Assembly (NCBI RefSeq): GCF_030503595.1
Contig: NZ_CP129966.1
Location: 1,612,001 to 1,676,000, forward strand
Direction: 5' to 3'
DNA from: Corynebacterium sp. P4-C1
GTDB taxonomy: Bacteria; Actinomycetota; Actinomycetes; Mycobacteriales; Mycobacteriaceae
Length of the DNA stretch: 64,000 bases
Below are positions 1,370 through 57,810 of the stretch, piece by piece. Position numbers and translations under genes: made by a program. How positions within the stretch are numbered: position 1 is the stretch's first letter; the number at the start of each line of letters is the position of its first letter. Under the pieces are notes generated by a model, which was not told the origin of the DNA, made no database searches, and saw nothing but the letters and a program-made list of their open reading frames with translations.

Positions 1370-3786
1370 GCTGTGGCGTGCTCCTTTTCAAACTGGCGCT
1401 CCAGCTCCTCACCTTCGATGTCGAGGTTGGGCAGGATGCGGTCCAGCCATTTCGGCATCCACCAAGTGGTGGTGCCCAGGATGAACATGGTGGCGGGGAC
1501 GAGGGCCATGCGGACGAAGAAGGCATCGAAAAGCACAGCGGCGCCGAGCGCGAAGCCGAAGATCTTGATGAACGGCAGCGGCTGGTCGATGAACGCGACG
1601 AAAACGGCGATCATGATGATGGCGGCGGCGGTGACCACGCGGGCGCCGCGGACGAAGCCTTCGACGGTGGATTCTTCAACGGCATCGAGAACGGCTTCCG
1701 GGTCGTCGCCGGGGCGGCGGAGGCGCGTGTACTGCTCGCGCATGCGGGTGACCAGGAAGACTTGGTAGTCCATGGCCAGGCCGAAGGTGACTCCGATGAG
1801 CAGAATCGGCAGGAAGGACAGGATCGGCCCCGGGGTGTTCACTAGACCTGCCGCGCCCTCCTGGAAGACCATGACGGTCGCACCGAAGGCCGCGCCGACA
1901 GACAGCAGGAAACCGAGCCCCGCGATGAGCGGCACCAGAATCGACCGGAAGACGATGATGAGCAGGAGGATCGCCAGGCCGACGACGATGGCGAGGTATA
2001 TCGGCATCGCGCCCGCCAGCTCCTCGGTGATGTCCATCTGCACCGCGGTGAAGCCGGTCAGGCCGACATCGACACCGGTCGCGTCCTCGATCTCGGTGTC
2101 CATTTCACGCAGCGCGTGCGCGGTGTCCACCGTGTACTGGTTGTCCGGTCCGGTTTCCGGGGTGGCCAGGATCTGCGCGGCGGTCATGTCTTCGTTGACG
2201 CCGATGAGCTGCGCGTGACGCACACCCGTCACCGAGCCAGCGCGCTCCATCGCGTACATGAAGGAGGACAAAGCGGCTTTTTGCTTATCGACGTCCCCCG
2301 CTTCCCCATCCACCGCATCATCCGGAATGGACCGCATGTAGGGGGCGAGGCCCTCCGCGTTCGGGTCGGCATCGTGGGCATCGACGACGAGCAGGAACGG
2401 CGCGTTGACGCCTTCGCCGAATCCCTCGGCCATGAGGTCTGCGGATTTGCGCTGGGTGGTGTCGGTGTCGCTGTTGGAGTCGGAAGGCAGGGACATCTCC
2501 ATCTGCAGCACCGGCAAGGAACACACACCGAGCAGGATGACCACCGCAGCCATGACCAGTGCCGGGACTCGGCGCACGATGTTCACCCAGGCGCGGCCGA
2601 GAGAGCGGGTGTTCAGATCCTTGCCCGGGCGGTCACCAGGACCGGGATTGCCGGCCACGCCCGGGATCTTGCCGGCGAAGATCTTGTCGCCGAGCAGGCC
2701 CATGAGGGCCGGCAGAAGTGTGATGGCCACGGACACGGCGATGGCCACGGTCGCCGCGGCGGACAGGCCCATCCAGGAGAGGAATTCGATGCGGGCGAGC
2801 ACCAGCGCGACTAGCGCAGTGAACACGGTGGTGCCGGCGAACAGCACCGACGAACCCGCGGTCCCGACCGCGAGGCCGGCGGCTTCGGGGCCGGGAAGGC
2901 GGTGGCGCTCCTGCTTGTAGCGGGACAGGATGAACAAGGCGTAGTCGATGCCCACGGCCAGACCGATCATGACGGCCATGATGGGTGTGACCTCGTTGAG
3001 CTCCGTGAAGCGGGTGGCAATGAGGATCAGGAAGGTGCCCAGGCCCACCCCGATGACGGCGGTGATGACGGGCATGCCCGCGGCCACGAGGGAGCCGAAG
3101 GTGACCAGCATGACCAGGAAGGCCACGCCGATGCCGATGATCTCGCTGGTGGTCTTGATCTCGATGGGGTCGCCGAAGCCAGGGCCGCCGGCCTCAACTT
3201 GCAGGCCCTTCGACCGGCCCAAATCGAGCGCCTCGTTGACGACAGCACGGTCTTCATCGGTGACCTGCATGGAGGTCTCCGCGCCGAATTCGAAGGTGGT
3301 GTAGCCGATGCGGGCGTCGTCGGAAAGCAGCTGAACGTTGTGGGCATCGGCCTTCGCGCGCTCCTCCGGCAGCCCCATCTCCGTCATCTGGGTGACGATT
3401 TGGTCCGTCTGCTCCCGGGATACGGTGACCGGGTTGCCGAAGCGCTGGGTCCCCGCCATGTCCGGCAAGTTATCTTTGATGTAGCCGACCGTCTCGTCGA
3501 TGGTGGCCATATTCCCCGGCTCATCCAAACGCTGACCATCGGGGGCCTTGAACACCAGGTTCACCGACGGGGCCTGGACCGGGTCGCTGATCCCGGGGAA
3601 ATTCTCGCCGAGGGACTCGAGTGCGTCAATCGACGGTGTTCCGGAAATAGCGAAGTCGGACGAAAGCGGCTTCGACAGCGTCAGCGCTCCGGCCACACCT
3701 GCGGCGAAGAGCAACAGCCAGGCGACGATGACCTTCCATTTATTCAGGAATGACCATTTGCCGAGCCGGTAGAGGAACTTCGCCAC
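1366..3786 (-). CDS. MMPL/RND-family membrane transporter
   Basis: 806-residue inner-membrane protein of the MMPL (YdfJ-like) branch of the RND superfamily. These proteins use the proton gradient to export lipids or small molecules, and in mycolata often envelope lipids. There are two related halves, each an N-terminal helix, a large extracytoplasmic loop and a helix bundle. The conserved intramembrane motifs are GLAVGIDYALFILSRY in the first half and GVTFGLAMDYQVFLVTR in the second. GTG start preceded by AAAGGA. It lies 22 nt after a large stem-loop that follows tRNA-Ser and overlaps tgt by 4 nt. The substrate cannot be deduced from sequence. Confidence 0.88.
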   Translation of the reverse strand: MAKFLYRLGKWSFLNKWKVIVAWLLLFAAGVAGALTLSKPLSSDFAISGTPSIDALESLGENFPGISDPVQAPSVNLVFKAPDGQRLDEPGNMATIDETVGYIKDNLPDMAGTQRFGNPVTVSREQTDQIVTQMTEMGLPEERAKADAHNVQLLSDDARIGYTTFEFGAETSMQVTDEDRAVVNEALDLGRSKGLQVEAGGPGFGDPIEIKTTSEIIGIGVAFLVMLVTFGSLVAAGMPVITAVIGVGLGTFLILIATRFTELNEVTPIMAVMIGLAVGIDYALFILSRYKQERHRLPGPEAAGLAVGTAGSSVLFAGTTVFTALVALVLARIEFLSWMGLSAAATVAIAVSVAITLLPALMGLLGDKIFAGKIPGVAGNPGPGDRPGKDLNTRSLGRAWVNIVRRVPALVMAAVVILLGVCSLPVLQMEMSLPSDSNSDTDTTQRKSADLMAEGFGEGVNAPFLLVVDAHDADPNAEGLAPYMRSIPDDAVDGEAGDVDKQKAALSSFMYAMERAGSVTGVRHAQLIGVNEDMTAAQILATPETGPDNQYTVDTAHALREMDTEIEDATGVDVGLTGFTAVQMDITEELAGAMPIYLAIVVGLAILLLIIVFRSILVPLIAGLGFLLSVGAAFGATVMVFQEGAAGLVNTPGPILSFLPILLIGVTFGLAMDYQVFLVTRMREQYTRLRRPGDDPEAVLDAVEESTVEGFVRGARVVTAAAIIMIAVFVAFIDQPLPFIKIFGFALGAAVLFDAFFVRMALVPATMFILGTTTWWMPKWLDRILPNLDIEGEELERQFEKEHATA
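2283..2293 (-). repeat. CGTCGATAAGC motif, copy 1
   Basis: Lies inside the MMPL gene, read as Val-Asp-Lys in GDVDKQKA. Upstream flank GGGGGA, downstream AAAAAG; nearly the same flanks surround the variant copy in pstP (60198-60208). Confidence 0.85.
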
Positions 3787-3808
3787 GGGGATCCTTTCCT
3801 AAAACAAA

Positions 3809-3872
3809 AAGTTCGTGGTTTGGGGAGTGAACACGGCGACATTTCGCCGAATTTTACCCAAACCACGAACTT
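3809..3872 (-). terminator. Large stem-loop after tRNA-Ser(CGA)
   Basis: Perfect 16-bp inverted repeat: AAGTTCGTGGTTTGGG at 3809-3824 and its complement at 3857-3872. The 32-nt loop contains a second hairpin (CGGCGA/TCGCCG). Reading the minus strand it comes directly after the tRNA, and the descending arm runs into TTTGTTTT, as in an intrinsic terminator. It ends just upstream of the MMPL start, so it could also control read-through into that gene. Confidence 0.8.
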
Positions 3873-4365: not shown

Positions 4366-4827
4366 TCAGCGGAGGCGCCCGAAGAAACCGGTCATGAGGC
4401 GCGCGGTCTCCGGTTCCAGGACACCGCCGCGCACCTCGACGGTGTGGAGGTGGGAGGGGTCGCGGAGGACGTCGATAAGCGAGCCCACAGCTCCCGTCTT
4501 TGGCTCGTATGCGCCGAAGACGACGCTTTTCATGCGCGCGCCCAAGATGAGGCCGGCGCACATCGTGCACGGCTCGAGGGTGACCACGATCTCGCAGCCG
4601 TCGAGCCGCCAGGTACCCAACGCGCGCGCCGCATTCCGCGTTGCGACGACCTCCGCATGCCCCGCCGGATCCTGTTCCGTCTCGCGGCGGTTCGTCCCCG
4701 TGGCCAGCTCAGTGCCGTCAGGGCCGTACACCACAGCACCGACGGGAATGTCGGCGGCGGGAGTGGTGCGGGCGACCTCGATGGCGCGGCGCATCCGCTC
4801 CACGGCGCGTCGTTCGAGCTGGCTCAT
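4366..4827 (-). CDS. tadA: tRNA-specific adenosine deaminase TadA
   Basis: Converts A34 to inosine in tRNA-Arg(ACG), the tRNA encoded twice in this window. The 153-residue product has the cytidine/deoxycytidylate deaminase zinc site: HAE at 57-59 (His ligand and catalytic Glu) and PCTMC at 86-90 (two Cys ligands). The length is normal for bacterial TadA. Its start lies 14 nt after the end of the upstream tRNA-adenosine-deaminase-associated gene, which indicates one operon. Confidence 0.94.
   Translation of the reverse strand: MSQLERRAVERMRRAIEVARTTPAADIPVGAVVYGPDGTELATGTNRRETEQDPAGHAEVVATRNAARALGTWRLDGCEIVVTLEPCTMCAGLILGARMKSVVFGAYEPKTGAVGSLIDVLRDPSHLHTVEVRGGVLEPETARLMTGFFGRLR
4470..4480 (+). 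repeat. CGTCGATAAGC motif, copy 2
   Basis: Inside tadA, antisense to it, encoding Leu-Ile-Asp (GSLIDVL). Upstream flank GCGGAGGA. Confidence 0.85.
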
Positions 4828-4841: not shown

Positions 4842-5366
4842 CTAGCTGAGCGCTTGGTCGAGCTCGTCGATGAAACCGAGCTCCTCGGCGATGCGGTCGA
4901 TGACGTCGGAGGGGTCGGCGGCAGAGTCGTCGATAAGCACGCTCATGACCTGCTCGCTGAGGCCCACATCGTCGAGAATCTCGAAATCCCCGTCGGCCCA
5001 GCCGTCGATGTTGTCCAGCTCGTCCGGGTCGATGTCCGGGATGTCGATGTCGGCGGCGTCCAGCACGTCCGCGGCGAAATCGTCGTCGACCGCCATCGTC
5101 GCGTCCGAGATGAGCACGCGGGTGCGCGATGGGCCCGGACGCACGATGACCAGGTACTCCTCCTCAACATTGAGGAGCGCGAACGCCGCCCCTTCGCTGC
5201 GCAGTCCGCGCACTGCGTCAACGGAGGTGGCCAGATCCTCGAAATCGTCGTCGAATTCAGCGACGACCCACTCGCCGTCCCGCCTGGCAACGGTGACCGC
5301 GTAGCCGTCTTCGAAGGCGCCACCGTACCCGCCGCCCTGGCCCGGTTGCCCGCGTCCGTCACTCAT
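4842..5366 (-). CDS. TadA-associated acidic protein
   Basis: 174-residue, strongly acidic protein (many DD/DE/ED runs, for example EFDDDFEDL) of the actinobacterial family commonly annotated as tRNA adenosine deaminase-associated. It lies immediately upstream of tadA on the same strand. No catalytic motif or membrane segment is visible. Function is unknown; the constant pairing with tadA suggests a role in tRNA editing, which is inference. It is divergent from tyrA with only 39 nt between the two starts. Confidence 0.8.
   Translation of the reverse strand: MSDGRGQPGQGGGYGGAFEDGYAVTVARRDGEWVVAEFDDDFEDLATSVDAVRGLRSEGAAFALLNVEEEYLVIVRPGPSRTRVLISDATMAVDDDFAADVLDAADIDIPDIDPDELDNIDGWADGDFEILDDVGLSEQVMSVLIDDSAADPSDVIDRIAEELGFIDELDQALS
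4928..4938 (+). repeat. CGTCGATAAGC motif, copy 3
   Basis: Inside the TadA-associated gene, antisense, encoding Leu-Ile-Asp (SVLIDDS). One of the copies with a poorer upstream G tract (GCAGAGT). Confidence 0.85.
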
Positions 5367-8199: not shown

Positions 8200-9561
8200 T
8201 CACAGCCCCAGAATCGATGTCGCGATGAGGAAGTAGATGACCAAGCCTGTGGCATCGCAGAACGTGGAGATGAAGGGGTTGGAAAACACCGCCGGATCAG
8301 CGCCGACGGTCTTCGCAATAATCGGCATCGCGCCGCCCACCGTCGCCGACATCGTGCAAATGGACAGCAGGGTCAGGCCGATCACCATCCCCATGTCCAA
8401 TCCGTAAACAAGAGTGGCCAGGGAGAACCCGAGGGCGCCCAGCACGGCGCCGAGCAGGAGCCCCACCCGGACTTCGCGCCACATGACTTTGAGGATGTCT
8501 GCTTTGTGGACGTCGCCAAGCGCCAATGCCCTCGTCACTGTTGTCGCGGCTTGGTTGCCCGTATTTCCTCCCGTGCCGGTGAGCAGCGGGATGAACAAGG
8601 AGAGAACCACCGCCTGCTCCATCTTGGCCTCGAAGATGTCGAGGACCTGCACGGTGAGGATCGCGGAGACGGCCAACACGAGCAGCCACACAATGCGGGA
8701 GCGCACCAGTTTGGTCAGGGGCGTGGACAGGTACGGCTGCTTCAGCGATTCAGAACCGCCCTGGCGTGCGCTGTCCTCGGAATCCTCGCTCTCGACGATG
8801 TGCTGCGCCTCATCGAAGGTGAAGATGCCCACGAGCCGGTTGCCCGAATCCACCACCGGCAACGCGAGCAGCGCCAGCGGCAGGAACCAGCGGGCGGTCT
8901 CCTCGGCATTGGCGCCGGCCTCAGCAGAGGGAGTCACTTCGAGCAAGTCCGCGATCTGCGTGTCACCGTCCGCCAGGAACAACCGCCGCATCTTCACGAT
9001 GCCGGTGAGCTGCCGGTCGCGGTCGATCACGGGGAGGGTGTACAGCGTTTCCAGGTCATCATGCTGCTCGCGAAGCAGCTCGCGCACCTCGTGCGCTGTC
9101 ATCGTTCCGTAGATCTCGGGGATCTCCGGGGACATTACGCGGCCGACAGTCCCCTTCGCGTATCCGAGGACCGCGTGGGTGTTCTCCTTGTCCTTCTCAT
9201 TCAGCTCTTTGAGCAGGCGTCCGGCGACGGGGCCGGGGAGCTCGTCGAGAAGCATGACGCGGTCCTCCGCACCCATTCCCTCGAAGAACTCGCCGACGCT
9301 CCCGCTGCCCAGCGCGTGCACCATGTCCGCCTGGTGGCGCGGGTCCAGCGCATCGAACACGACACCGGCGCGCTCGGGCGGAAGCAGGCGGAACAGCACC
9401 GCACCGCGCTTGGCGGGCAAATGCTCGATCAGTCGGATGATCTCGCTGAGCTCCGCCCTTTCAAGCAGACCGGAGATCTCCTCCGCACGGTCTGTGCGCA
9501 TCCGCTTTTCGACGAGCCTTTCCAAATCCCGCAGAGCCTCACTCTGCTGCGTAGCGGGCAT
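8200..9561 (-). CDS. mgtE: MgtE-family magnesium transporter
   Basis: Dimeric Mg2+ channel. It has a cytosolic N domain rich in helices (RLPPERAGVVFDAL), tandem CBS domains (VGRVMSPEI..., LPVIDRDRQLTGIV, LPVVDSGNRLVGIF) and a C-terminal domain of five helices with the family signature TGTGGNTGNQAATTVTRAL. I chose the ATG at 9561 (453 residues) because GAGAAAGAGGA lies just upstream; an in-frame start 12 codons earlier has no such site. The gene lies alone between tRNA-Arg copy 1 and the ABC cassette. Confidence 0.92.
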   Translation of the reverse strand: MPATQQSEALRDLERLVEKRMRTDRAEEISGLLERAELSEIIRLIEHLPAKRGAVLFRLLPPERAGVVFDALDPRHQADMVHALGSGSVGEFFEGMGAEDRVMLLDELPGPVAGRLLKELNEKDKENTHAVLGYAKGTVGRVMSPEIPEIYGTMTAHEVRELLREQHDDLETLYTLPVIDRDRQLTGIVKMRRLFLADGDTQIADLLEVTPSAEAGANAEETARWFLPLALLALPVVDSGNRLVGIFTFDEAQHIVESEDSEDSARQGGSESLKQPYLSTPLTKLVRSRIVWLLVLAVSAILTVQVLDIFEAKMEQAVVLSLFIPLLTGTGGNTGNQAATTVTRALALGDVHKADILKVMWREVRVGLLLGAVLGALGFSLATLVYGLDMGMVIGLTLLSICTMSATVGGAMPIIAKTVGADPAVFSNPFISTFCDATGLVIYFLIATSILGL

Positions 9562-10869: not shown

Positions 10870-11855
10870 CCAGGCGCGCACAATCAATCTGCTCCGAAAG
10901 AGCTTCTTTCCGCGTGCGCTCACCGAGCGCATCATCCGGTGTGTGTTCCGGTTCGCCACCGTCACCGGGATTCTGTTGGCTGGGAACGCTCTCGAATGGG
11001 GCGGGAACGCCATCGGCTTTCTCGTCGGGTGGACAGGGTTACTCGCGTTGGAAGCATCCCAGTCGAGGGCTCTTTCTACCGGTGCCCTCACATCCTTCTG
11101 GCCGGGCAACCGCAACCACCGCATCCTCGCCGGAATGACCGCTGTGGAACTCCCCGCACTGGTACTGCTCGCCGCAATCGTGTTCATTGCTCGCCCGAGT
11201 CCGCTGCAGGTCGCGGTCGCAGTAGCGCTCCTCCTAGCCCAGAATGTCATCCTCGTGGTCATGGAGGCGCGCAAGGCCGACGGGAAAGCTTCATTCGAGC
11301 AGTTCGTGCGCGACGGCGGTGTCACGTGCATCATTCCCGTCGTGCTCGCGGCGATCGCCGTTCCTGTACACGATGCGGCACCGATGGAGAACATCGTCCA
11401 ATCGGCGGGACTCGTCGCAGTCATCGGTAGCGAGATCGCTTTCGCTCGGCGTCTCAGCGGTTTCACGCCCGGGGTCTTTGTCCCCGACTATTTGCGCACG
11501 GAGGTGAGGCGCTTCGGGGGCCGCCAAGCACGATTCGTTTTCACCGGCGTGTTAGTCGCTGGGCTGCTCGCTGGTTTCGCCCCGATCATCGCCCTCGGCA
11601 TCGCGGTCTCCCTGTTCATCGGGGCACACTTATTGCACAGCATTTTCTTCTTCGCCGGCTCAGTGCCCGGCCGTGTGGGCCTAGTCATGCTCTTCACAGT
11701 GGCTACTTCGGTGCTTTGCGGCACAGCGTTAGTCCTCGACAAGCATGTTCAGTTCACGCTCCCGATCTTTCTGGGGGGGCGCAGCCATCGTTGCGCTCAG
11801 CGCGTTCGCCGCGCACAGCAGGCTTGACGACGAACGCATCGCCCGCAACATGTAG
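10862..11855 (+). CDS. ABC cassette membrane protein, frame broken near 3' end
   Basis: Hydrophobic protein with about eight predicted membrane segments, presumably the permease partner of the preceding ATPase; no family recognised. As read, the frame ends at 11827 with a basic tail (GRSHRCAQRVRRAQQA). Removing one G from the seven-G run at 11773-11779 continues the last helix as GGAAIVALSAFAAHSRLDDERIARNM and stops at 11855. The restored end looks natural. The extra G is either a sequencing error or a real slippage mutation that could switch the protein's C terminus. Confidence 0.75.
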
Positions 11856-12128: not shown

Positions 12129-13187
12129 ATGATTCGCCACGACCTCGACGCAATTCCCGCCTACGTTCCTGGCAAGACTGATCCGCATGCTTTGAAGCTG
12201 TCCTCGAATGAGGTCGCGGGTGCTCCCCTGCCCGCAGCTGCGGAGGCGATGGCGAAGGCAGCCATGCTGGGCAACCGGTATCCGGATATGGGCGCAGTTT
12301 CACTGCGCCGCGCCCTTGCCCGCCACTTGGGTGTCGAAGACGGGAATGTGGCTGTCGGCTGCGGCTCATCCGCGCTGTGCCAGCAACTCGCCCAGGCGAC
12401 TTCCACCGTCGGGAACAACATCATCTTCCCGTGGCGCAGCTTCGAGGCGTACCCGATCTTCTGCCGCATCGCCGGTGCCGAGCCGCGCCCCGTCCCGCTC
12501 GTCGACGGCAACCACGACCTCGAGTGCATGCTTTCGCTTATCGACGCCTCCACCTCCCTGGTGTTCCTCTGCTCCCCCAACAACCCGACCGGCGCCGTCC
12601 TTTCCACCGCTGACTTCCGCGCCTTCATGGCCCGGGTTCCGGAGCATGTGACTGTGGCGCTCGATGAGGCTTATTTCGAGTTCAACCGCGACCCGGACGC
12701 TGTCAACGGCCAAGAGGTCTGGCGCGATTACCCCAACCTGCTCTGCCTGCGCACGTTCTCCAAGGCTTACGGGCTCGCCGGAGTGCGCGTCGGATACGCC
12801 TTCGGCAACGCCGAGCTCGTCGCTGCCGTGAACAAAGTCGGAGTGCCCTTCCAGGTCAGCGCTGTTGCGCAGGTTGGGGCCATCGCCTCCCTCGAGCACT
12901 CCGATGAACTGCTTGCGCGCGTGGAGGACACGATCGAGGTCCGCGACGAAGTGGCCGACAAGATCGGGGCGGCGCGCTCGCAGGCCAACTTCGTGTGGGT
13001 GCCTTTCGACGACCCCGAGCGCGCCCCTGCGATTGCCGACCGCCTAGCCCAGCACGGCGTTCTCGTCCGCGCATTCCCTGAGGGGCTCCGCATCACAGTC
13101 ACCAACCGCGACGAAACTGACGAGCTCCTCTCTGCCTGGGATGCTCTGCAGGTCGCACAGGTTTCGGCCAATCATGCTCGTCGGTAA
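12129..13187 (+). CDS. pat: HisC-type (histidinol-phosphate/aromatic) aminotransferase
   Basis: 352-residue class I PLP aminotransferase of the HisC branch. It has the N-terminal LSSNE motif, CSPNNPTG, DEAYFEF, the lysine in RTFSKAYGLAGVRVGY and a C-terminal Arg in GLRITVTN. In corynebacteria this paralogue, usually called Pat, transaminates phenylpyruvate or prephenate-type substrates, with some histidinol-phosphate activity; here it lies outside any his operon. The pat assignment over hisC is inference. ATG start; divergent from the tRNA-Ser/Arg pair. Confidence 0.87.
   Translation: MIRHDLDAIPAYVPGKTDPHALKLSSNEVAGAPLPAAAEAMAKAAMLGNRYPDMGAVSLRRALARHLGVEDGNVAVGCGSSALCQQLAQATSTVGNNIIFPWRSFEAYPIFCRIAGAEPRPVPLVDGNHDLECMLSLIDASTSLVFLCSPNNPTGAVLSTADFRAFMARVPEHVTVALDEAYFEFNRDPDAVNGQEVWRDYPNLLCLRTFSKAYGLAGVRVGYAFGNAELVAAVNKVGVPFQVSAVAQVGAIASLEHSDELLARVEDTIEVRDEVADKIGAARSQANFVWVPFDDPERAPAIADRLAQHGVLVRAFPEGLRITVTNRDETDELLSAWDALQVAQVSANHARR
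12536..12546 (-). repeat. CGTCGATAAGC motif, copy 4
   Basis: Inside the aminotransferase gene, encoding Leu-Ile-Asp (SLIDAST). Upstream flank GGTGGAGG in motif orientation. Confidence 0.85.
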
Positions 13188-13225: not shown

Positions 13226-13654
13226 ATGAAGCTGAATTATTCCCTCAACACTGGTTTCGCCTCGGGCGACGGCGCTCCGCCGACCCGGGACAACATCGAC
13301 TCGTGGATCGCTTGGGCGCCCGTGCCCGCATCCGACCTGACTGCCGACACCACGCTCGGCACGACTTTTTTCTTGACGCCACGCGCGATTCCCCAGCTCA
13401 GCGAGGACACTGTCCTCTTGGGCGTTCCTGTGGGCGAAGCTGGCCTCGACATTGACGCATCGCTCGACCCGCAACAGCTCTCCTACACCGACGGCGCGGA
13501 CGCGAAGGTGAGCACGTCCCGTCCAGTGGAGCTCGACGTGGTGCGCGTGGTCGCCGCGAAGACGGGTCCGGCTCGTCGACAAGCACAAAGCGCGCTTATC
13601 GACGTCCCCGGCGAGCGCCAGTTCCACATCATCCACGAGCTCTTTGAACAATAA
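13226..13654 (+). CDS. Uncharacterised 142-residue protein
   Basis: Soluble protein, family not recognised. No signal peptide, cysteine or catalytic motif is visible; the sequence is rich in Asp, Ala, Thr and Pro and looks beta-rich. ATG start 38 nt after the aminotransferase, so possibly in the same transcript, and followed by a terminator. Near its 3' end it contains an inverted pair of the interspersed motif, CGTCGACAAGC at 13574-13584 and the exact copy at 13594-13604 on the other strand. Confidence 0.7.
   Translation: MKLNYSLNTGFASGDGAPPTRDNIDSWIAWAPVPASDLTADTTLGTTFFLTPRAIPQLSEDTVLLGVPVGEAGLDIDASLDPQQLSYTDGADAKVSTSRPVELDVVRVVAAKTGPARRQAQSALIDVPGERQFHIIHELFEQ
13594..13604 (-). repeat. 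CGTCGATAAGC motif, copy 5
   Basis: Encodes Leu-Ile-Asp (ALIDVPG) and lies 9 nt from a one-mismatch copy in inverted orientation, forming a potential 10-bp stem within coding sequence. Upstream flank GCCGGGGA. Confidence 0.85.
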
Positions 13655-15117: not shown

Positions 15118-15194
15118 CCGTCGCAAAGCAATTGCGACTCACTCACCTTACAACACCGCCCACCGGGTCCCGCTAACGGCGGAATGCCCGCCTT

Positions 15195-18334: not shown

Positions 18335-18345
18335 CGTCGATAAGC
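18335..18345 (+). repeat. CGTCGATAAGC motif, copy 7
   Basis: One of two intergenic copies, 28 nt after the wzt stop. Upstream flank ATCGGAGG. Confidence 0.85.
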
Positions 18346-20957: not shown

Positions 20958-20963
20958 GCCGGA

Positions 20964-21887: not shown

Positions 21888-21907
21888 AGGCCCCACCCTA
21901 GTGGGGA

Positions 21908-48293: not shown

Positions 48294-49241
48294 CTACAGC
48301 TCGAGGGCGTCGAGCACCGCGTCGAGGGCCTCGCCGACGCCGGTGCGCCACAGGGCGGCGGCTTTAGTGTCCGCGCGCCCGGGCCCGCCGTTGATCACAG
48401 CGACGGGTTTACCGGCGGCCCGCGCGTCGAGCACCAGCCGGTACCCGCTCATCACCGCCAGGGAGGTGCCCACGGCAATCAGGGACGTCGACGCCTCCAG
48501 CCACTTCCCGGCCGCTTCTCGGCGCCCCCTCGGCACATTCTCCCCGAAGTACACCACGTCCGGTTTCATGCGCCATCCCCCGCACTGCGCGCACTTGACC
48601 ATGGTGAATGCCTGCACCGCCTCCTCGGGCAGTTCGACGTCGCCGTCGGGGTTGATCATGGACTCGTCCACCAGGACTGTTTGCAGGTAGCCGGGGTTGG
48701 CGGCATTGAGCCGGGCGTCGAAAAGCGTTCTGTTTTCGCGCGCGCCGCAATCGAGGCAGACGACGTGCTCCATGTCCCCGTGGAGCGCAATGACGTTGCG
48801 GGAGCCGGCCGCCAGGTGGAGCCCGTCGACATTCTGCGTGATGATGCCGCTGATCAGCCCGGCGCGCTCCAGCTCCACGAGAGCGTAGTGCGCGCGGTTG
48901 GGCGACGTCGCGCGCATCTGGCGGATGCCCACGAACGCGCGGGCCCAATAACGGCGCACCGCGGACGGAGAGTGCGAGAACTCCTGGTACGTCATCGGGC
49001 GGCCCTTGGACAGGCGGCCGCCTGGGGAGCGGTAATCGGGGATGCCGGACTCCGTGGACACGCCCGCGCCAGTGATAACCAGCGCGGGACCGTTGCGCAG
49101 AAGGGCGACGATGTCGGCGAGCGCCTGTTCCGGCGGTGTCGGCTCCGCAGTCTCATGCACCACCCGCTCGATGGAGCGGATCGCGCTGCGGTGGGCGAGT
49201 TCGACGGCCGGATCGGTGAATTCCGGTTCGGGGAAGGCCAT
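48294..49241 (-). CDS. cobB: NAD-dependent protein deacylase (sirtuin)
   Basis: 315 residues, Sir2 class. NAD site TGAGVSTESGIPDYRSPGG, QNVDGLH, catalytic His in LHGDMEHVVC, and two zinc CxxC pairs (CLDC, CAQC). Starts at the ATG at 49241 giving MAFPEPEF; upstream frame is antisense shadow of amn. Lies 14 nt after the amn stop on the same strand, so probably co-transcribed: both enzymes touch adenine nucleotide/NAD metabolism. Confidence 0.92.
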   Translation of the reverse strand: MAFPEPEFTDPAVELAHRSAIRSIERVVHETAEPTPPEQALADIVALLRNGPALVITGAGVSTESGIPDYRSPGGRLSKGRPMTYQEFSHSPSAVRRYWARAFVGIRQMRATSPNRAHYALVELERAGLISGIITQNVDGLHLAAGSRNVIALHGDMEHVVCLDCGARENRTLFDARLNAANPGYLQTVLVDESMINPDGDVELPEEAVQAFTMVKCAQCGGWRMKPDVVYFGENVPRGRREAAGKWLEASTSLIAVGTSLAVMSGYRLVLDARAAGKPVAVINGGPGRADTKAAALWRTGVGEALDAVLDALEL

Positions 49242-49255: not shown

Positions 49256-50638
49256 CTACCGGAACGGAACTTCGCCCTGCGCGCGGCGCAGTTTGCGGGT
49301 GCGCAGGCGCTCGGGGTTCTTGGCCAGGCGCTCCATGGTGCGCACCGCGCACATCACGTGGGCTTCCTTGGAATTGGAGTAGAAGGCCTGCGCGGCGGCC
49401 GGCAGCTTCGGCACGGCATGCAGAGGCAGGTCGGACACGGCGAGCAGGGTCCCGTACGGGACGCGGTAGCGGTAACCGTTCGCCGCGATGGTGGACGACT
49501 CCATGTCCACCGCTGCCGCCGTGGAATTGCGCAGCCACTCCCACAGGTCGCGCGGCGCCTGCCACTCCCAGTTTCGGTCGTCAGTGGACAGGACTGTTCC
49601 GGTGCGCATGAGGGACTGCTCTTCCTCCCCGTAGATCTTCTTCACGGATTTCTCCAACGTGCGCTGGATTTCCGGCACCGCGGGGATCGGGGTCTCGGGG
49701 TCGATGTGGCTGTGCAGCACGTGATCACGGCGCTCGTAGGCGTTGCCCAGGATGAGGTCGCCGATGCGCATGCGGGCATCCAAGCCGGCACAGTGGCCGA
49801 TCATGATCCAGCACTCGGGGCGCAGCACAGCAAGGCAGTCCGTGATCGTCTTCGCGTTCGACGGACCGACGCCGATATTGATCATGGTCACGCCGTTGTT
49901 CCCGTCGGCCACGAGGTCGAAGCGCGGCATCTGGTACTTCGAGGCGAGGTCCATGGCCAAAGCGTCGACGCCGTCGACATCTCCGCGCTCGATCCGCGTG
50001 CCGTTGGGAAGGACGAGGGCGTGGTAGCGCGTGGTGTCGTCGGCAAGCTGGCTCAGCCCGAATTTCACGAACTCGCGCGTGTGCATCTCGTAGTTGGTGA
50101 ACAGGATGAATTTCTGCACCGAGTCGACTTCGATGCCGGTGTAGTGCTCGATGCGGGCGCACGCGATGTCGAAACGCTGCGGGCCGAAGTGGAACAGGGG
50201 TTTCTCGGGGCCGTGGAAGGCGTCCCAGTCGCCGTCGATGATCGCATCGTGGACGTCGTCGAGCGTGGGGCGCGGCGCCGTCGCGTTCGATCCGCGCTGT
50301 GCGCCGCGGATGTACTCGGGTGCGATCCCGATGTCGGAGTACCCGACGGAGATCTCGGCGTCGTAGTTCTCCGTCAGGCAGCGCAGCTGGTGGCGGAGGT
50401 AGCCCGACATCAGGTCCGGGCGCGACACCGCCGCGGAGTACACGCCCGCCTCATCGACGTAGCCGAAGGGTTCGGAGCGGTCGATCGGCTTCCATTCCTT
50501 GATCTCCACGGCGATCTTCGGGTAACGCACCTGCGAGTAATCCCCTCCGTCGCGCGCAATATCGCAGGCAGCGGAGTAAAGCTCGATCAGCTTATCGACG
50601 GCCCCGTCAACGCTTCCCACAACCTCTAACGCTCCCAT
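49256..50638 (-). CDS. amn: AMP nucleosidase
   Basis: Splits AMP into adenine and ribose-5-phosphate. The 460-residue product has an Amn-specific N-terminal domain (to about residue 190) and a nucleoside-phosphorylase-fold C-terminal half with IGHCAGLDARMRIGDLILGNAY and AVDMESSTIAANGYRYRVPYG. Full family length. Divergent from the lipoprotein gene; sirtuin gene follows. Confidence 0.93.
   Translation of the reverse strand: MGALEVVGSVDGAVDKLIELYSAACDIARDGGDYSQVRYPKIAVEIKEWKPIDRSEPFGYVDEAGVYSAAVSRPDLMSGYLRHQLRCLTENYDAEISVGYSDIGIAPEYIRGAQRGSNATAPRPTLDDVHDAIIDGDWDAFHGPEKPLFHFGPQRFDIACARIEHYTGIEVDSVQKFILFTNYEMHTREFVKFGLSQLADDTTRYHALVLPNGTRIERGDVDGVDALAMDLASKYQMPRFDLVADGNNGVTMINIGVGPSNAKTITDCLAVLRPECWIMIGHCAGLDARMRIGDLILGNAYERRDHVLHSHIDPETPIPAVPEIQRTLEKSVKKIYGEEEQSLMRTGTVLSTDDRNWEWQAPRDLWEWLRNSTAAAVDMESSTIAANGYRYRVPYGTLLAVSDLPLHAVPKLPAAAQAFYSNSKEAHVMCAVRTMERLAKNPERLRTRKLRRAQGEVPFR
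50590..50600 (-). repeat. CGTCGATAAGC motif, copy 15
   Basis: Near the amn start, encoding Val-Asp-Lys (GAVDKLIEL). Upstream flank TGACGGGGC. Confidence 0.85.
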
Positions 50639-50688: not shown

Positions 50689-51642
50689 GTGACCCACCCC
50701 TCCAAACGGAAGCTCCGCCTCGCCGCGGTGCTGTGCCTGCTGCCCCTGGCTGTGACTTCGTGCTCCGAGAAATCTTCCGGCCCCGAGCCCACTCAAGCTC
50801 CCGCCGCGTCAGACTCCAGCGCGCCCGACGTTCCCGCTGCAGGCCTCACCCTCGACGGCCTCGAGGAGAAAATCGCCGCAATCGAAGAGAAGACCAATAC
50901 CCAAGCGAGCTTCTCGCTTTTCGACGGCACCACCGCCACCAACGCCGGCTCCGGCGGCACCCTGCCCGCGTGGTCCACCATCAAGGTGCCCATTGCCCTG
51001 TCCGCCTGGGAGCACTGCGAAGACAAGGAGTTCGTCAGAGAGCAGACCACCGCCGCCATCGAGTGGTCCGACAACGACGCCGCCTACGCCCTGTGGCGCT
51101 GCCTGGGCTCCGACGAGGAAGCCAGCCAGATCGTCGGCGACGAAATCGCTTCCGCTGGGGTGTCGGTGCACGTGGAACCCGCCTTCGGCACCACCTCCTG
51201 GCCCACCCCCGCACAGGCCCGCTACGCCCAGCACCTGGTGACCGTTCCGGCCGACAACCCCGTCATCCAGGAGATGCACAAAATCGACGCCGAGCACAGC
51301 TACGGCCTAGGCACCATCGCTGATCTGCCGTTCAAAGGCGGTTGGTCCGATGCCCCGGATGCGTCCTTCCACGTCCGTCAGCTCGGCTTCTTCACTATCG
51401 ACGGCACCGACTACGGTGTCGCCATCGCCGCCCGCTCCATCCTCGGCTCCGAGCAGGACTGCCAGGACGCCCTGACAGAGCTGGCCGCCCTGCTCGCCGA
51501 TTCCTCCAGGCAGCTGCACCTGAAGAGCGGGCAGCCCGCCGAGCAAGACCTCGCGCAGAGCCCGCAGTCCGCACCCGAGCTGCCGCAGGGCTCCGAGCTG
51601 CCGCACATGCCCGACATGCCTGCGATGACCTGGAAGCCCTAA
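50689..51642 (+). CDS. Lipoprotein with SxxK serine-hydrolase fold
   Basis: 317 residues. Type II signal peptide with lipobox LAVTSC (Cys about 25), so membrane-anchored outside the cell. The mature part has class A beta-lactamase-like motifs: STIK (SxxK) in PAWSTIKVPIALSAWE, SDN in EWSDNDAAYALW, and KGGW in the KTG position. C-terminal Pro/Gln-rich tail. Likely a penicillin-recognising cell-wall protein rather than a lactamase. GTG start. Confidence 0.8.
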   Translation: MTHPSKRKLRLAAVLCLLPLAVTSCSEKSSGPEPTQAPAASDSSAPDVPAAGLTLDGLEEKIAAIEEKTNTQASFSLFDGTTATNAGSGGTLPAWSTIKVPIALSAWEHCEDKEFVREQTTAAIEWSDNDAAYALWRCLGSDEEASQIVGDEIASAGVSVHVEPAFGTTSWPTPAQARYAQHLVTVPADNPVIQEMHKIDAEHSYGLGTIADLPFKGGWSDAPDASFHVRQLGFFTIDGTDYGVAIAARSILGSEQDCQDALTELAALLADSSRQLHLKSGQPAEQDLAQSPQSAPELPQGSELPHMPDMPAMTWKP

Positions 51643-51720: not shown

Positions 51721-53070
51721 ATGACTCTCGAAGAAACAACTATCGACCTGCTGAAGCAGCTGATCCGCAACGCATGCGTCAACGACCTCACCGCCGACTC
51801 CGGTGAAGAGGTCCGCAACGCGGAGACCCTCGAAGAGTTCTTCGCGGGCACTGATGTGCAGGTCCGCCGCTTCGAGCCCCACCCCGGTCGCGTCTCCGTC
51901 GCTTTCACCATCCCCGGTAGCGAGCCGTCCGCCGAACCTCTGACCCTCCTCGGACATACCGATGTCGTTCCCGTCGACGAGGACAAATGGACGCAGAAGC
52001 CTTTCGGTGCCGAGGTCGTCCAATCCGAGGACGGTGCCCGCATTTACGGCCGCGGTGCCACCGACATGCTCTTCATCACCGCCGCAATGGCAGCGGTGAC
52101 CAGGGAAGTCGCCGTCGCCGCGCAGAACGGCACCCCGCCGCGCGGCACCCTCACCTTCGTGGCCTGCGCCGACGAGGAAGCCCGCGGAGGACTGGGCGCG
52201 GGGTGGATGGCCGAGAACGAACCCGAAGCGTTCAGCTGGCGCAACTGCCTGTCCGAAACCGGCGGCTCGCACATCCCGGTCCAGGACGAAGACGCGGATG
52301 CCGACGCACTCGTGGTGGTCGTCGGGGAGAAGGGCGCAGCGCAGCGCCGCATCACCATCCACGGGGATGCCGGCCACGGGTCAGCCCCCTACGGCCGGGA
52401 GCTCACCGTCGGGCTCATCGGCGAAGTCGCGCGACGTCTCGCCGCAATCGAACCAGACGTCAAATCCGACGACCTCTGGCAGGGCTACGTCCGCTCCTTC
52501 CGCTTCGACCCGGAGACCGAAGCGGCGCTCATCGCCGGTGGGAACTACGAGGCTTTCGGCCCGCTGGCCCGCTACTCGCACGCCATGAGCCACCTCACCG
52601 TCTCCCCCACCGTGCTCCGCGCCGGCGGCGCCATCAATGTGCTTCCCTCCACGGCATACGTGGAGCTCGACATTAGGCCGTTGCCGGGGCAGGAACAGGG
52701 GGACGTCGATAAGCTCTTGCTCGATTCCCTCGGCGACCTGGCCGAACGCGTCGAGATCGAGCACCTGATCACCGAAGATGCGACCGTCTCCCCCGCGTCC
52801 GGGCCGCTTTACGACGCTATCGTCGACACCTTCCACGAGTTCTTCCCCCACGCCGATGTCGTGCCCACCATCGCAGCCGGCGGCTCCGACCTCCGCTTCG
52901 GGCGGCGCCTCGGCGGAGTCGGCTACGGCTTCGCCCTCCACGCCGCCGGACGCGGGTTTGGCGAGGTGCTCGACCAACTCCACTCCCACGACGAATTCGT
53001 CCACGTCGAGGATGTCGAGCTGACCGCGCGCGCGTACCGCAGCCTTGTGCGGCGCTTCCTGGTCGTTTGA
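51721..53070 (+). CDS. M20-family metallopeptidase
   Basis: 449 residues. Zinc motifs GHTDVVPVD, the Asp and DEEARGG (catalytic Glu) segment, and GDAGHGSAPYG in the dimerisation lid. Of the M20 group with ArgE/DapE/carboxypeptidase relatives; substrate unknown. GGGAGGA sits 9 nt before the ATG. Confidence 0.9.
   Translation: MTLEETTIDLLKQLIRNACVNDLTADSGEEVRNAETLEEFFAGTDVQVRRFEPHPGRVSVAFTIPGSEPSAEPLTLLGHTDVVPVDEDKWTQKPFGAEVVQSEDGARIYGRGATDMLFITAAMAAVTREVAVAAQNGTPPRGTLTFVACADEEARGGLGAGWMAENEPEAFSWRNCLSETGGSHIPVQDEDADADALVVVVGEKGAAQRRITIHGDAGHGSAPYGRELTVGLIGEVARRLAAIEPDVKSDDLWQGYVRSFRFDPETEAALIAGGNYEAFGPLARYSHAMSHLTVSPTVLRAGGAINVLPSTAYVELDIRPLPGQEQGDVDKLLLDSLGDLAERVEIEHLITEDATVSPASGPLYDAIVDTFHEFFPHADVVPTIAAGGSDLRFGRRLGGVGYGFALHAAGRGFGEVLDQLHSHDEFVHVEDVELTARAYRSLVRRFLVV
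52704..52714 (+). repeat. CGTCGATAAGC motif, copy 16
   Basis: Inside the M20 gene, encoding Val-Asp-Lys (GDVDKLL). Upstream flank AACAGGGGGA, same as copy 13. Confidence 0.85.
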
Positions 53071-54629: not shown

Positions 54630-54903
54630 ACCTGTTCGCCTCCGCTATCCGGCCGGATTTTTCTTGCCTCATGTTTTCGGGCGTGCTTGATCGGCGGTCC
54701 TGCGTGGTGTTTCGCGGGATCGCCGTATCAGCAGTCGAGCGGTCCGGCAACCCCATGACAAGCCAGCTTGGCGACGCACGGGATGCCGTCGTGGAAAGCC
54801 TCTCCGCGGCCTTCGACGAGTCGGCTGCGTGGTCGATCGGTTTCTCGGCGCTCTTCCTGGTGTCGAGTCAGGACCCCACCCGTGCGGGGTGCGGGGTGCG
54901 GGG
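54630..54903. other. Intergenic region with GC-rich direct repeats
   Basis: 274 nt without a credible gene. Near its right end three adjoining TGCGGGG units (54884-54903) face a CCCCACCC run, giving a possible stem that could terminate the leftward GH13 gene. A CCGGCCGG with a T-run at 54650-54664 may terminate the rightward dehydrogenase. Confidence 0.5.
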
Positions 54904-56079
54904 TCAGGGCACCCACTCGTAGAGCGTCTCGTCGGCGGAGCGGATGCGGATACCGGGGGCGGGGTTGAGCCAGGCGTCGATAAGCAAATGCTCGGTGCCG
55001 TTGAAGACGCGGTAGCTGATTGTCTCGTTGGTTTTGTCGAGGACCTCAATGTCGGCGTGGGTGAGCCACGGGTGGCGGCGGCGCAGACCAATGAGGGCTT
55101 GGTGCTCGCGGAAGATCCAGACGCCGAGCTCGGAAAGCTCGTCAGGCGTCGCGGGCAGGGGCGGGCGGACGGCATCGTCTGCGCTGAAGCCTTCACCGCG
55201 GATGCCTTCAAAGCCTTGTTCGTCGCCGTAGTAGATGCTGGGCATGCCTGGCAGCGTCAGCAGGATCGCGAGGGCCAGGATCGACTTGTCCTGACCGACT
55301 TTGCTGGCGATGCGGTCGACGTCGTGGTTACCGATGAAGGTGTTGGTGAGCAGCCCGCGGGAGATATCGCGGTGGCGGGACAGGGCGTGGTCGAGTTCCC
55401 AGAAGTTGGCGTCGTGAAGCGAGCTCCAGATGGCTTTCCACAGCTCGTACTGGGTGACGGCATCGAGGGTGCCGTCATGGGCGATTTGGGCGTAGTCGCC
55501 GTGGATGACCTCACCGAGGAAGAGGGCATCGGGGTATTCGGCGCGCACCCGGGCGAGCACGTCGGACCAGAAGGCAGGCGGGACGGAGTAGGCGACATCG
55601 AGACGCCACCCGGCGATGCCGCGGGCCAGCCAGAACTTCATGATGTCGGCGACCATCTCCTTGACGCGCTCGTCATCGTGGTGGAGCGTGGCCAGTTCGT
55701 CGTGCCCCTCCCAGTTGGTGTTGCCGGCGAGCCCCTCGGCGACGGCGGGGTGGGTCGCGGCGACGTGGTTGAATACTCCGTCGAGCATCACTGTGATGCC
55801 GCGCGTGCGGCAGGCGTCCATGAGCCAGTCGAAGTCCTCGTTGGTGCCCAGACGGGAGTCGATGCGGTAGTGGTCGAGTGTGTCGTAACCGTGCCCGACG
55901 GACTCGAAGATGGGGGCGAGCAGCAGGCCGTCGCAGCCGAGTTCGATGAGGTAGTCGAGCCACGGCTCGAGGGAGCGGAGGCGCGGCGCGGCGTCGGCGC
56001 CCTCATCACCACGGTCGCGGATCGGGGCGCCGGTGGCGCCGAGGGGGTAGATGTGCCACCAGATCGTGCTGTCGAGCAT
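54904..56079 (-). CDS. GH13-family alpha-amylase-like glycosidase
   Basis: 391 residues, small alpha-amylase fold. Motif order: DGLLLAPIFESVGHGYDTLDHYRID, catalytic nucleophile in GWRLDVAYSVP, acid/base Glu in LFLGEVIHGDYA, IGNHDVDRIAS. No signal peptide, so intracellular; it probably acts on maltooligosaccharides or glycogen. It lies 116 nt downstream of glsA on the same strand. Confidence 0.88.
   Translation of the reverse strand: MLDSTIWWHIYPLGATGAPIRDRGDEGADAAPRLRSLEPWLDYLIELGCDGLLLAPIFESVGHGYDTLDHYRIDSRLGTNEDFDWLMDACRTRGITVMLDGVFNHVAATHPAVAEGLAGNTNWEGHDELATLHHDDERVKEMVADIMKFWLARGIAGWRLDVAYSVPPAFWSDVLARVRAEYPDALFLGEVIHGDYAQIAHDGTLDAVTQYELWKAIWSSLHDANFWELDHALSRHRDISRGLLTNTFIGNHDVDRIASKVGQDKSILALAILLTLPGMPSIYYGDEQGFEGIRGEGFSADDAVRPPLPATPDELSELGVWIFREHQALIGLRRRHPWLTHADIEVLDKTNETISYRVFNGTEHLLIDAWLNPAPGIRIRSADETLYEWVP
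54975..54985 (+). repeat. CGTCGATAAGC motif, copy 17
   Basis: Inside the GH13 gene, antisense, encoding Leu-Ile-Asp (LLIDAWL). Upstream flank TGAGCCAGG. Confidence 0.85.
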
Positions 56080-56195: not shown

Positions 56196-57752
56196 CTAGT
56201 CCCCGCGGTTGATGAGCGGCTCGAGGCGTTGACGGATCCGGTTGTGCCAGTGCTCGGCGGACTCTTCCAGATTGGGGCGCAGACCGCGGTGCGTGAGGTT
56301 GACGCGGGTGCTGCCGTCCTCATCTTCGTCGATATCGAAGATGTAGTCGTCCCCGGTCGGTTCGTCGTGCACGACGACGCGCTGGCCGTCGTCGCTCCTG
56401 TCGACGGTGAGCTCGCCGGGCGTGTCCTCTTCCCACCACTCCTGGGGTTTGCACACGACGCTGTAGGCATCCTTCCGGGAGGCTGTGACTGTGAAGGAGT
56501 CGGTGAAGTCCTGGATGGACTCGACGTGGGTGCCGTCGGAGAACTCGTAGTCCGGCATGGCGGATTCGGGGTCGTAGACGGCGACATCGAAACCGTCTTC
56601 GCGGAATTGGCGCAGTCCTTCCTTGATCAGGCGGCGGCCGGCTAAATTGAACGAGGTCACGTGGGAGAAGTCGAGGACGAGCTCGTCGCCGACAAGTTCG
56701 CGCTCAACGAGCTCATGAAGGATCTGCTCGGCGGCGGTGAAGTTGATCATGCCCTGCAGGCGCACGACGTTGGTCTCGCCCTCGCGGCGCACCGACCGGA
56801 TGCCCGGCGCGGAGTAGTAGTGGGAGCCCATCATGTGGAGGCCGAGGCTCTTGGACAGGCGGCGGAAGATCTCCACGCCGCGCACGGAATTGCCTTTCTC
56901 ATTCAGGCGCGGGGACAGCGACGCGGCGCCGAGCTGGCCGGGCAAGGTCCCGATCAGCCCGCCGGCCACGCCGGACTTGGCGGGGATGCCGACGGTGCTC
57001 ATCCACTTGCCGGAGCCGTCGTACATGCCGGCCGACGCCATGACGGACTGGGTGAGGCGGCAGGCCTGCGAGCTGAGCACGCGCTCCCCCGTGACGGGCT
57101 GCACGCCGCCGTTGGCTAGGGTGGCGGCCATGACGGCCAGGTCCTTGACGGTGACCAGGATGGAGCACTGCCGGATGTAGCTGGTCACAGCGTCGTCGAC
57201 ATCGTCCTCGATAATCCCGTACACCCGCAGCATGTGGGCCAGGGCCATGTTGCGGTCGGCGGTTTCGAGCTCGGCGTCGATGATGTCTTCGTCAAAACGC
57301 AGTTGGCGCCCCGCAAGACGGGAGAACACGTCCAGGACCATGGAGCAACGCTTTTCGACGGTCGCATCCGTCCCCGCCACCAGCTGGTTCACGGCGATGG
57401 CCCCAGCGTTGATCATGGGGTTGGTGGGGCGTTTCGTGTCGTCGTCGAGCGAAAGTTCGTTGAATGCTTCGCCGGACGGCTCCATGCCCACCACGCTGTG
57501 GACATTTTCCACCCCGCCCTGGTCCAGCGCGATCGCGTAGACGAACGGCTTGGAGATGGACTGGATGGAGAATTCGTAATCGTCATCCCCCACGGAGTAG
57601 AGGTTGCCGCTGCGGGTGCACAACGCGAGCGCGAGCTTGTCGGGGTCGGCGTTGCGCAGCGTCTCGATGTAGTCGGCGTTCTCACCATCGGTGATGTCGC
57701 GGACCTCGTCGAGGATGGTGTTCAAATATCCGGGGATCGGGGTGTTCGGCAT
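56196..57752 (-). CDS. glsA: Glutaminase A fused to STAS and SRPBCC-like domains
   Basis: Hydrolyses glutamine to glutamate and ammonia. The 518-residue product has a serine-dependent glutaminase domain at residues 1 to about 305, with SISK at 65-68 (nucleophile Ser and Lys), PTNPMINAGAIA and GLIGTLPGQLG. A STAS domain follows at about 320-425 (VVRLQGMINFTAAEQILHEL, LDFSHVTSFNLAGRRLIKEG). The last 95 residues resemble a short AHSA1/SRPBCC module (SVVCKPQEWWEED, VNLTHRGLRPN, AEHWHNRIRQRLEPL). Glutaminase-STAS fusions are known in actinobacteria; the third part is an inference from pattern. No frame break is seen. Confidence 0.88.
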   Translation of the reverse strand: MPNTPIPGYLNTILDEVRDITDGENADYIETLRNADPDKLALALCTRSGNLYSVGDDDYEFSIQSISKPFVYAIALDQGGVENVHSVVGMEPSGEAFNELSLDDDTKRPTNPMINAGAIAVNQLVAGTDATVEKRCSMVLDVFSRLAGRQLRFDEDIIDAELETADRNMALAHMLRVYGIIEDDVDDAVTSYIRQCSILVTVKDLAVMAATLANGGVQPVTGERVLSSQACRLTQSVMASAGMYDGSGKWMSTVGIPAKSGVAGGLIGTLPGQLGAASLSPRLNEKGNSVRGVEIFRRLSKSLGLHMMGSHYYSAPGIRSVRREGETNVVRLQGMINFTAAEQILHELVERELVGDELVLDFSHVTSFNLAGRRLIKEGLRQFREDGFDVAVYDPESAMPDYEFSDGTHVESIQDFTDSFTVTASRKDAYSVVCKPQEWWEEDTPGELTVDRSDDGQRVVVHDEPTGDDYIFDIDEDEDGSTRVNLTHRGLRPNLEESAEHWHNRIRQRLEPLINRGD

Positions 57753-57773
57753 GCGCGCTAGTGTAAAGCGAAA

Positions 57774-57810
57774 GGCCCGCCGATAAGAGCATTTTGCTTA
57801 TCGACGGGCC
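57774..57810 (-). terminator. Terminator of tRNA-Leu built from the interspersed motif
   Basis: Arms 57774-57790 (GGCCCGCCGATAAGAGC) and 57796-57810 (GCTTATCGACGGGCC) with a 5-nt loop, followed on the minus strand by TTTCGCTTT. The right arm contains exact motif copy 18, the left a two-change copy, so the stem is an inverted pair of the repeat. Confidence 0.8.
57796..57806 (-). repeat. CGTCGATAAGC motif, copy 18
   Basis: Second intergenic copy; forms one arm of the tRNA-Leu terminator hairpin. Upstream flank CACGGCC. Confidence 0.85.

Follow-up and report, generated by a model that had tools for sequence, protein, structure and literature searches.

A dispersed DNA element in the Corynebacterium chromosome

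The window analysed here is a stretch of 64,000 nucleotides from Corynebacterium sp. P4-C1 (NZ_CP129966.1, positions 1,612,001 to 1,676,000), whose genome is a single contig of 2,313,418 bp. Scattered among its genes are copies of a short DNA element, the subject of this report, which had been noticed on inspection of the window as an 11-bp word, CGTCGATAAGC (the original prediction). Seventeen exact copies and one copy with its last base altered, CGTCGATAAGA (26833, plus strand), lie where that prediction placed them, ten on the plus strand and eight on the minus strand. Other details were recovered as well: the base before GTCGATAAG is C in all 18 copies, G stands two bases further upstream in 15 of them, and two copies (18335 and 57796) are located outside predicted genes. 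The hexamer GATAAG, described as nearly absent elsewhere, occurs 24 times in the window, and 18 of these occurrences fall inside the motif. The G+C content, put at about 62% by eye, is 65.3% by count.

With one mismatch allowed, CGTCGATAAGC has 37 matches in the window against a mean of 1.14 after dinucleotide shuffling (none of 100 shuffles reached as many). Across the whole genome, a count that had been proposed as a check, there are 493 exact copies (248 forward, 245 reverse) versus 2 of the reversed pattern used as a control. The 11-bp motif, originally described as recurring about every 3.5 kb, is real, but it is the most frequent version of a core with an internal gap, CGTCG-NN-AAGC, of which the window contains 50 copies in addition to the CGTCGATAAGA variant (Table 1). 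In a 464-kb sample of the genome, consisting of the window and 20 spaced 20-kb stretches, this core is found 276 times against 17.0 expected under an order-4 Markov model. The spacer is AT in 96 of the 276 cores, and the next seven commonest spacers are enriched too. When the CATCG form is added (CRTCGNNAAGC), the genome holds 1,399 copies (701 forward, 698 reverse) versus 98 of the reversed control. Words one change away from CGTCGATAAGC are scarce in the 464-kb sample, changes of its central base excepted. The 27 one-step neighbours of CGTCGNNAAGC pooled from the same sample stand at background (347 versus 334.7 expected), most of them at or below expectation.

The coding context of the sites was established with genes predicted from codon usage in this analysis. 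Among the 276 sites, 159 are read as antisense Leu-x-Asp, 62 as sense Val-x-Lys and 27 in four other frames, and 28 are outside predicted genes. A single peptide family was rejected as the source of the copies, the 248 coding sites yielding 186 distinct peptides. The occurrence in unrelated genes and several reading contexts noted originally extends to all frames. Because the sites occupy all frames and both strands, encode this many peptides and far exceed the Markov expectation, the motif is supported as a signal at the level of DNA, as had been proposed, and not as a protein motif. Its orientation is biased against transcription (173 antisense versus 75 sense coding sites), probably because the motif is more easily accommodated by Leu-x-Asp codons.

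Copies are present in all 21 sampled stretches, on either strand equally, with a mean dispersal of one per ~1.7 kb. Their spacing is more even than random, with a coefficient of variation of 0.79 against 0.985 ± 0.055 in simulations, none of which was as low in 2,000 trials. The replication origin was placed by dnaA at 1,718,298, in agreement with the sign change of the GC skew, and the minus strand was taken as leading between 0.45 and 1.76 Mb. No leading-strand bias is found among the 276 sites on this basis (132 leading, 144 lagging), nor when strands are assigned by local GC skew (134 leading, 142 lagging). These counts contradict a replication-polar segregation motif, one of the functions first suggested.

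Anatomy of the element

The purine- and G-rich stretch reported upstream of the 11-mer is indeed G-rich, but in full it is a 35-nt tract enriched in G and depleted in C, with a sharp outer edge. On the motif strand, the sequence 5′ of the core is G-rich and C-poor from -1 to -35, with a skew of 0.19 to 0.44 in each 5-nt bin, and from -40 outward the skew lies between -0.09 and +0.11. In the 3′ flank of the core the first bin alone is clearly skewed (0.18), and C is shunned directly 3′ of the 11-mer (0.04, n = 96). Since the skew of the tract ends at -35, is flat outside and is slight on the 3′ side, the unit is a one-sided element of about 46 bp, in which a 35-nt G-rich tract is followed by CGTCG-NN-AAGC. 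Core density increases with the G-richness of the preceding 35 nt, from 0-0.5 per 10 kb where that stretch is C-rich to 307 per 10 kb where G is most abundant, and the upstream 35-mer is above the random median in 89% of the 276 sites. As a description of the motif the 11-mer stands, but it did not capture that the spacer of two bases varies, how far the tract extends, or the existence of the dialects described below. Two cores of the window, at 15119 and 57796, lack the tract. The latter, next to a tRNA, makes an imperfect inverted GATAAG/CTTATC repeat (57796-57840) that is terminator-like.

Triplet-periodic recognition, with G at every third base as in a first sequence logo, was rejected, as the rhythm follows codon positions when sites are split by frame. 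In the two reading contexts with sufficient sites, G enrichment falls on wobble positions (0.79 versus 0.47, n = 40; 0.58 versus 0.35, n = 27); the second context shows it at first positions too. The tract occupies mostly wobble positions regardless of which strand codes. Because the G rhythm tracks codon positions that are free to change, it is attributed to codon constraint on a plain G-rich tract. A G-quadruplex basis was also rejected: a GG-run pattern is present in 145 of 276 tracts against 128.6 ± 6.1 in phase-preserving shuffles, and this excess is small.

Table 1. Cores of the form CGTCG-NN-AAGC in the window, with the single last-base variant (window coordinates).
Sequence	Position	Strand	Remark
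CGTCGATAAGC	2283..2293	-	35-nt G-rich tract directly 5′ on motif strand, 2294-2328
CGTCGGAAAGC	3318..3328	+	
CGTCGATAAGC	4470..4480	+	G-tract 4435-4469
CGTCGATAAGC	4928..4938	+	
CGTCGCCAAGC	8511..8521	+	
CGTCGAGAAGC	9243..9253	+	
CGTCGAAAAGC	9504..9514	-	
CGTCGTCAAGC	11822..11832	-	
CGTCGATAAGC	12536..12546	-	
CGTCGACAAGC	13574..13584	+	close inverted pair with 13594
CGTCGATAAGC	13594..13604	-	
CGTCGCAAAGC	15119..15129	+	no G-tract (8 G, 15 C); may match by chance
CGTCGAGAAGC	15656..15666	+	
CGTCGATAAGC	15965..15975	+	
CGTCGGCAAGC	16581..16591	-	
CGTCGATAAGC	18335..18345	+	outside predicted genes
CGTCGATAAGC	20999..21009	-	
CGTCGGCAAGC	21749..21759	+	
CGTCGATAAGC	24872..24882	+	
CGTCGCGAAGC	25336..25346	-	
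CGTCGATAAGA	26833..26843	+	variant, last base altered; 35 nt upstream: 17 G, 10 C
CGTCGATAAGC	27711..27721	-	8 of 22 aligned relatives have the core here
CGTCGCCAAGC	30540..30550	-	
CGTCGATAAGC	31613..31623	+	
CGTCGTCAAGC	32333..32343	-	
CGTCGATAAGC	34782..34792	-	
CGTCGACAAGC	35382..35392	+	
CGTCGAGAAGC	37106..37116	-	
CGTCGAGAAGC	38224..38234	-	
CGTCGATAAGC	39885..39895	+	
CGTCGAAAAGC	41517..41527	-	
CGTCGGTAAGC	44837..44847	+	inverted pair with 44898
CGTCGAGAAGC	44898..44908	-	
CGTCGTGAAGC	45486..45496	+	
CGTCGTTAAGC	46565..46575	-	
CGTCGGCAAGC	46760..46770	-	
CGTCGAAAAGC	48716..48726	+	
CGTCGGCAAGC	50038..50048	+	
CGTCGATAAGC	50590..50600	-	
CGTCGAAAAGC	50916..50926	-	
CGTCGATAAGC	52704..52714	+	
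CGTCGTAAAGC	52806..52816	-	
CGTCGCCAAGC	54766..54776	-	
CGTCGATAAGC	54975..54985	+	
CGTCGTGAAGC	55410..55420	+	
CGTCGAAAAGC	57350..57360	-	
CGTCGATAAGC	57796..57806	-	outside predicted genes, adjoins tRNA; no G-tract (10 G, 16 C)
CGTCGACAAGC	60198..60208	+	
CGTCGGCAAGC	60610..60620	-	
CGTCGCCAAGC	62887..62897	-	
CGTCGGCAAGC	63597..63607	-	

Distribution, dialects and turnover of sites

Related species, to which the original prediction had pointed for comparison, show the element to be enriched in many members of the genus and patchy within it. Among 242 Corynebacterium genomes, the count of CGTCGATAAGC varies between 0 and 782 per genome and that of CRTCGNNAAGC between 51 and 2,032. Judged by eye against the reversed control, the latter counts place 184 genomes in a motif-rich class (at least three times that control), 47 in a motif-poor class and 11 in an intermediate one. 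An order-wide search of 298 genomes from 76 genera, which used CGTCGNNAAGC alone, found enrichment in four of the five Corynebacterium genomes included and none outside the genus, where 0 of 293 genomes exceed about 1.8 times their own control. A related word, CATCGNNAAGC, is in excess outside the genus (42 versus 10.9 expected in 46 loci from Nocardia, Rhodococcus, Mycobacterium and others). This excess was rejected as the same element, as 23 of the 42 copies are one conserved place in DprE1 and lack the G-tract. In the window, DprE1 (22771-24195) and GlfT1 (19519-20502) lie within a conserved region of cell-wall arabinogalactan genes (19519-24195). On a DprE1 tree of 37 loci, labelled from 11-21 kb per relative and with five rows unlabelled, four changes between motif-rich and motif-poor states are needed, at least three of them on well-supported branches, and poor lineages are nested among rich ones.

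On plasmid-like contigs of motif-rich genomes the element is scarce. Nineteen pieces from 12 such genomes, each covering no more than the initial 20 kb of a secondary contig and taken to be plasmids, contain 16 copies of CRTCGNNAAGC against 130.8 expected at each genome's density, a comparison in which two masked pieces lower the expectation by about 2 and the G+C content of the pieces is below that of most chromosomes.

Several species use dialects of the element. For instance, G001 carries the CATCG form, CATCGNNAAGC, 46 times in 100 kb (3.2 expected) with the G-tract present, G054 carries CGTCGNNAA[GT]C with spacers TC, GC and GA, and the spacer is relaxed in G036 and G005. In G012, which is without the main motif, another word, CGCGRCGTCAT, occurs in its gapped form 23 times against 1.6 in 86 kb, without a G-tract; it is possibly a distant dialect, though the link is uncertain. 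Other strong motifs were not evident in 52-126 kb from each of the motif-poor genomes G008, G043, G132, G206, G232, G230 and G011. One over-represented word in motif-poor G021 (74% GC) was set aside as part of an unrelated palindromic repeat. This repeat, similar to repetitive extragenic palindromes, has about nine copies in 126 kb and includes CGTGCAAAAA and its inverse. In G005, over-represented words with 13-14 copies resemble a portion of a type I-E CRISPR repeat. Parts of a survey of spaced motifs report CRISPR pairs for three genomes of Corynebacterium (PMC5217627).

In alignments with relatives, sites mostly stand opposite ungapped variant words, and a few have small gaps beside or within the site. 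As no alignment shows insertion of a unit, a mobile or transposed repeat was rejected. The genome G009 (84.3% identity) retains 16 of 23 window sites compared to 28.3% of control words (P = 4.8e-5). In G183, of the same species, 12 of 12 sites are retained against 86.2% of controls, a difference that is not significant.

Competence and pilus genes

The tad locus of P4-C1 encodes a TIGR03815 CpaE homologue, a TadA-type ATPase, two T2SSF proteins (named TadB and TadC here), a DUF4244 pilin, a TadE-like protein scoring below the family cut-off and an Rv3654c-family minor pilin scoring above it, along with a neighbouring helicase. The comEA, comEC and holA genes are adjacent in this genome, which also encodes DprA. 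The competence-related genes of another actinobacterium, Micrococcus luteus, include tadA1, tadA2 and comEA, according to parts of one study (PMC6667448).

Gene content was surveyed in 80 genomes of the genus, 40 motif-poor and 40 motif-rich, and the neighbouring helicase and a PDDEXK_1 domain were each found in all 80. The TadA score is under 417 bits in 24 of the 40 genomes of the motif-poor class, which may reflect phylogeny, since helicase scores are mostly lower there as well. By eye, the DUF4244 pilin and the helicase are separated by ~2-4 kb in many motif-poor genomes and by ~0.7 kb in most motif-rich ones, with exceptions among the latter that include G036, G056, G071 and G237. A separate search for ComEC gave two matches in each of G014, G091 and G229 and none in G185 (90% complete, intermediate motif count), and the region matched in G124 is interrupted by a stop.

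A probable uptake-sequence-like tag

Taken together, the comparative evidence indicates that the element is probably a self tag resembling a DNA uptake sequence. Among the functions proposed originally, DNA uptake fits best. The element resembles the Haemophilus and Neisseria signals in its copy number and near-perfect conservation, in having dialects and a compositional flank, and in being spread over both strands and scarce on plasmid-like contigs. In the proposed mechanism, free DNA would be bound through the element by a receptor at the cell surface, for which a minor pilin of the Tad pilus or a protein associated with ComEA is the most plausible candidate. The pilus would then pull the fragment across the mycomembrane and wall, and ComEC would let one strand in for recombination. 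Since tagged DNA would be taken up preferentially, alleles with the tag would be copied into genomes at a higher rate than those lacking it. The tag would consequently build up and stay near-perfect, and a change of receptor would let it drift into dialects.

A broader claim is that competent Corynebacterium, taking up self-tagged DNA by a Tad pilus through a 46-bp element whose dialects act as exchange barriers within the genus, represent a third and independently evolved uptake-sequence system, in Actinomycetota. The chances of this appear evenly balanced. Sequence-specific DNA uptake is named for two Gram-negative families in parts of a 2016 review (PMC5031613). Among the matches listed from open-licence PubMed Central, none by its title gives an earlier description of the motif or of uptake sequences in Corynebacterium.

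A number of observations weigh against a role in uptake. ComEC is encoded by 241 of the 242 genomes, motif or no motif, and the TadA-type ATPase (80/80), DprA (80/80) and the DUF4244 pilin (79/80) are shared by rich and poor genomes alike. Neither these proteins nor the helicase and the PDDEXK_1 domain separate the two classes, and alignments of TadE, the Rv3654c-like pilin, the DUF4244 pilin and ComEA from about 20 species reveal no feature that discriminates between them. Intergenic sequence is not favoured, with 10% of sites in 14.6% of the sequence. Two one-step variants exceed expectation, CGTCGNNGAGC (72 versus 41.9 expected) and CGTCGNNACGC (42 versus 18.8), and these sole clearly over-represented neighbours may be tolerated variants or decayed sites. 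Retention is also poor in some relatives: G172 keeps one of two sites and G229 none of three, and in the DprE1 region of nine less close relatives the core is kept in 8 of 56 comparisons (14%) compared to 13.9% of control words. Given the retention in one close species and the turnover further out, density is maintained though individual sites turn over, a pattern that fits better with a genome-wide drive than with fixed functions site by site.

We judge the uptake-sequence-like reading to be the most likely; a Chi-like signal ranks second and a chromosome-organising site third. A recombination signal akin to Chi, read by an AdnAB-type end-processing helicase-nuclease with the G-rich tract as the RecA-loading strand, is unlikely. 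Loading of recombinase on that strand would fit a G-rich tract confined to the 5′ side of the core, and scarcity on plasmid-like contigs would fit as well. AdnAB-type enzymes carry a PDDEXK_1 nuclease domain, which in P4-C1 occurs in a 1,069-amino-acid frame and in others among the matches listed, and which all 80 surveyed genomes possess. The domain, however, is equally present in motif-poor species, so that, with machinery and nuclease both near-universal, gene presence distinguishes neither the uptake nor the Chi reading. The orientation of E. coli Chi is biased to the leading strand, a bias that the element lacks. Its patchiness within the genus also argues against Chi, and its uncontacted 2-nt spacer would be better for recognition of a duplex than for single-strand reading.

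Next in order, and likewise improbable, a dedicated nucleoid- or condensin-associated protein could bind the element every 1-2 kb and structure or mark the chromosome. Even spacing, presence in every sampled stretch without strand preference and scarcity on plasmid-like contigs would all agree with such a protein, but the several losses, gains and dialect changes among relatives, as well as the turnover of single sites, would not. A target of DNA modification or of a self-marking defence system with species-specific recognition is very improbable. Modification was among the original suggestions, and two half-sites around a variable spacer, with dialects between species, would be in keeping with it. 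It leaves the 35-nt composition tract unexplained, however, and type I sites differ from the element in the lengths of their spacers and half-sites. Sites of restriction systems are usually avoided, not accumulated, and it is the one-sided tract together with the over-representation that makes a modification target unlikely.

If the element does serve as an uptake tag, this kind of self-tagged transformation would have arisen anew in a phylum that has a mycomembrane, and many Corynebacterium species may be naturally transformable. A 46-bp tag on DNA could then provide a simple laboratory tool for the genus, and the element would also offer a testable system for the origin of dialects and for limits on gene flow. 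If it serves another purpose, there is still no explanation for a chromosomal element that is abundant, genus-wide and precise in its anatomy.

Comparison with known systems

HIP1 of cyanobacteria is a very abundant, clade-wide over-represented word inside genes. The element is similarly abundant in genes, but HIP1 is palindromic and without a one-sided tract. FtsK-orienting polar sequences (KOPS) are dispersed, G-rich and polar chromosomal signals, of which the element shares the dispersal and the G-richness while having no polarity from origin to terminus. Chi sites resemble it in being short, dispersed and non-palindromic signals of the chromosome. In contrast to Chi, the element is not oriented to the leading strand, has a variable internal spacer and is patchy within one genus.

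The uptake signal sequences (USS) of Pasteurellaceae are evenly spaced in their genomes. The Pasteurellaceae have a lipopolysaccharide outer membrane, whereas the phylum of Corynebacterium has a mycomembrane. Like USS and the DNA uptake sequences (DUS) of Neisseriaceae, the element is dispersed on both strands in hundreds to thousands of copies, and single deviations are rare apart from the two roughly twofold exceptions. It also has dialects among related species (G001, G054 and possibly G012) and is scarce on foreign or mobile DNA, as judged from plasmid-like contigs. Its carrier encodes competence machinery (comEA-comEC-holA, tad and DprA), which motif-poor species carry too.

According to parts of the 2016 review, DUS are found chromosome-wide in hundreds to thousands of copies, with rare single deviations and dialects (PMC5031613). 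Their sequence is unrelated to that of the element, whose intergenic sites are not enriched, and no long composition tract is mentioned in those parts of the review, whereas the element has one of 35 nt. For Haemophilus influenzae, parts of another study describe 1,465 USS cores at a spacing of ~1,000 bp, with AT-tracts and a 31-bp model of the full-length USS (PMC7811141). Here, too, the sequences are unrelated: the flank is G-rich in Corynebacterium and AT-rich in Pasteurellaceae, and the core of the element is gapped. Uptake is inferred for the element, and its associated genes are those of a Tad locus, a different type of pilus in a different phylum. What the element and the Pasteurellaceae USS have in common is on the order of a thousand copies, a short near-invariant core, a compositional flank and dialects.

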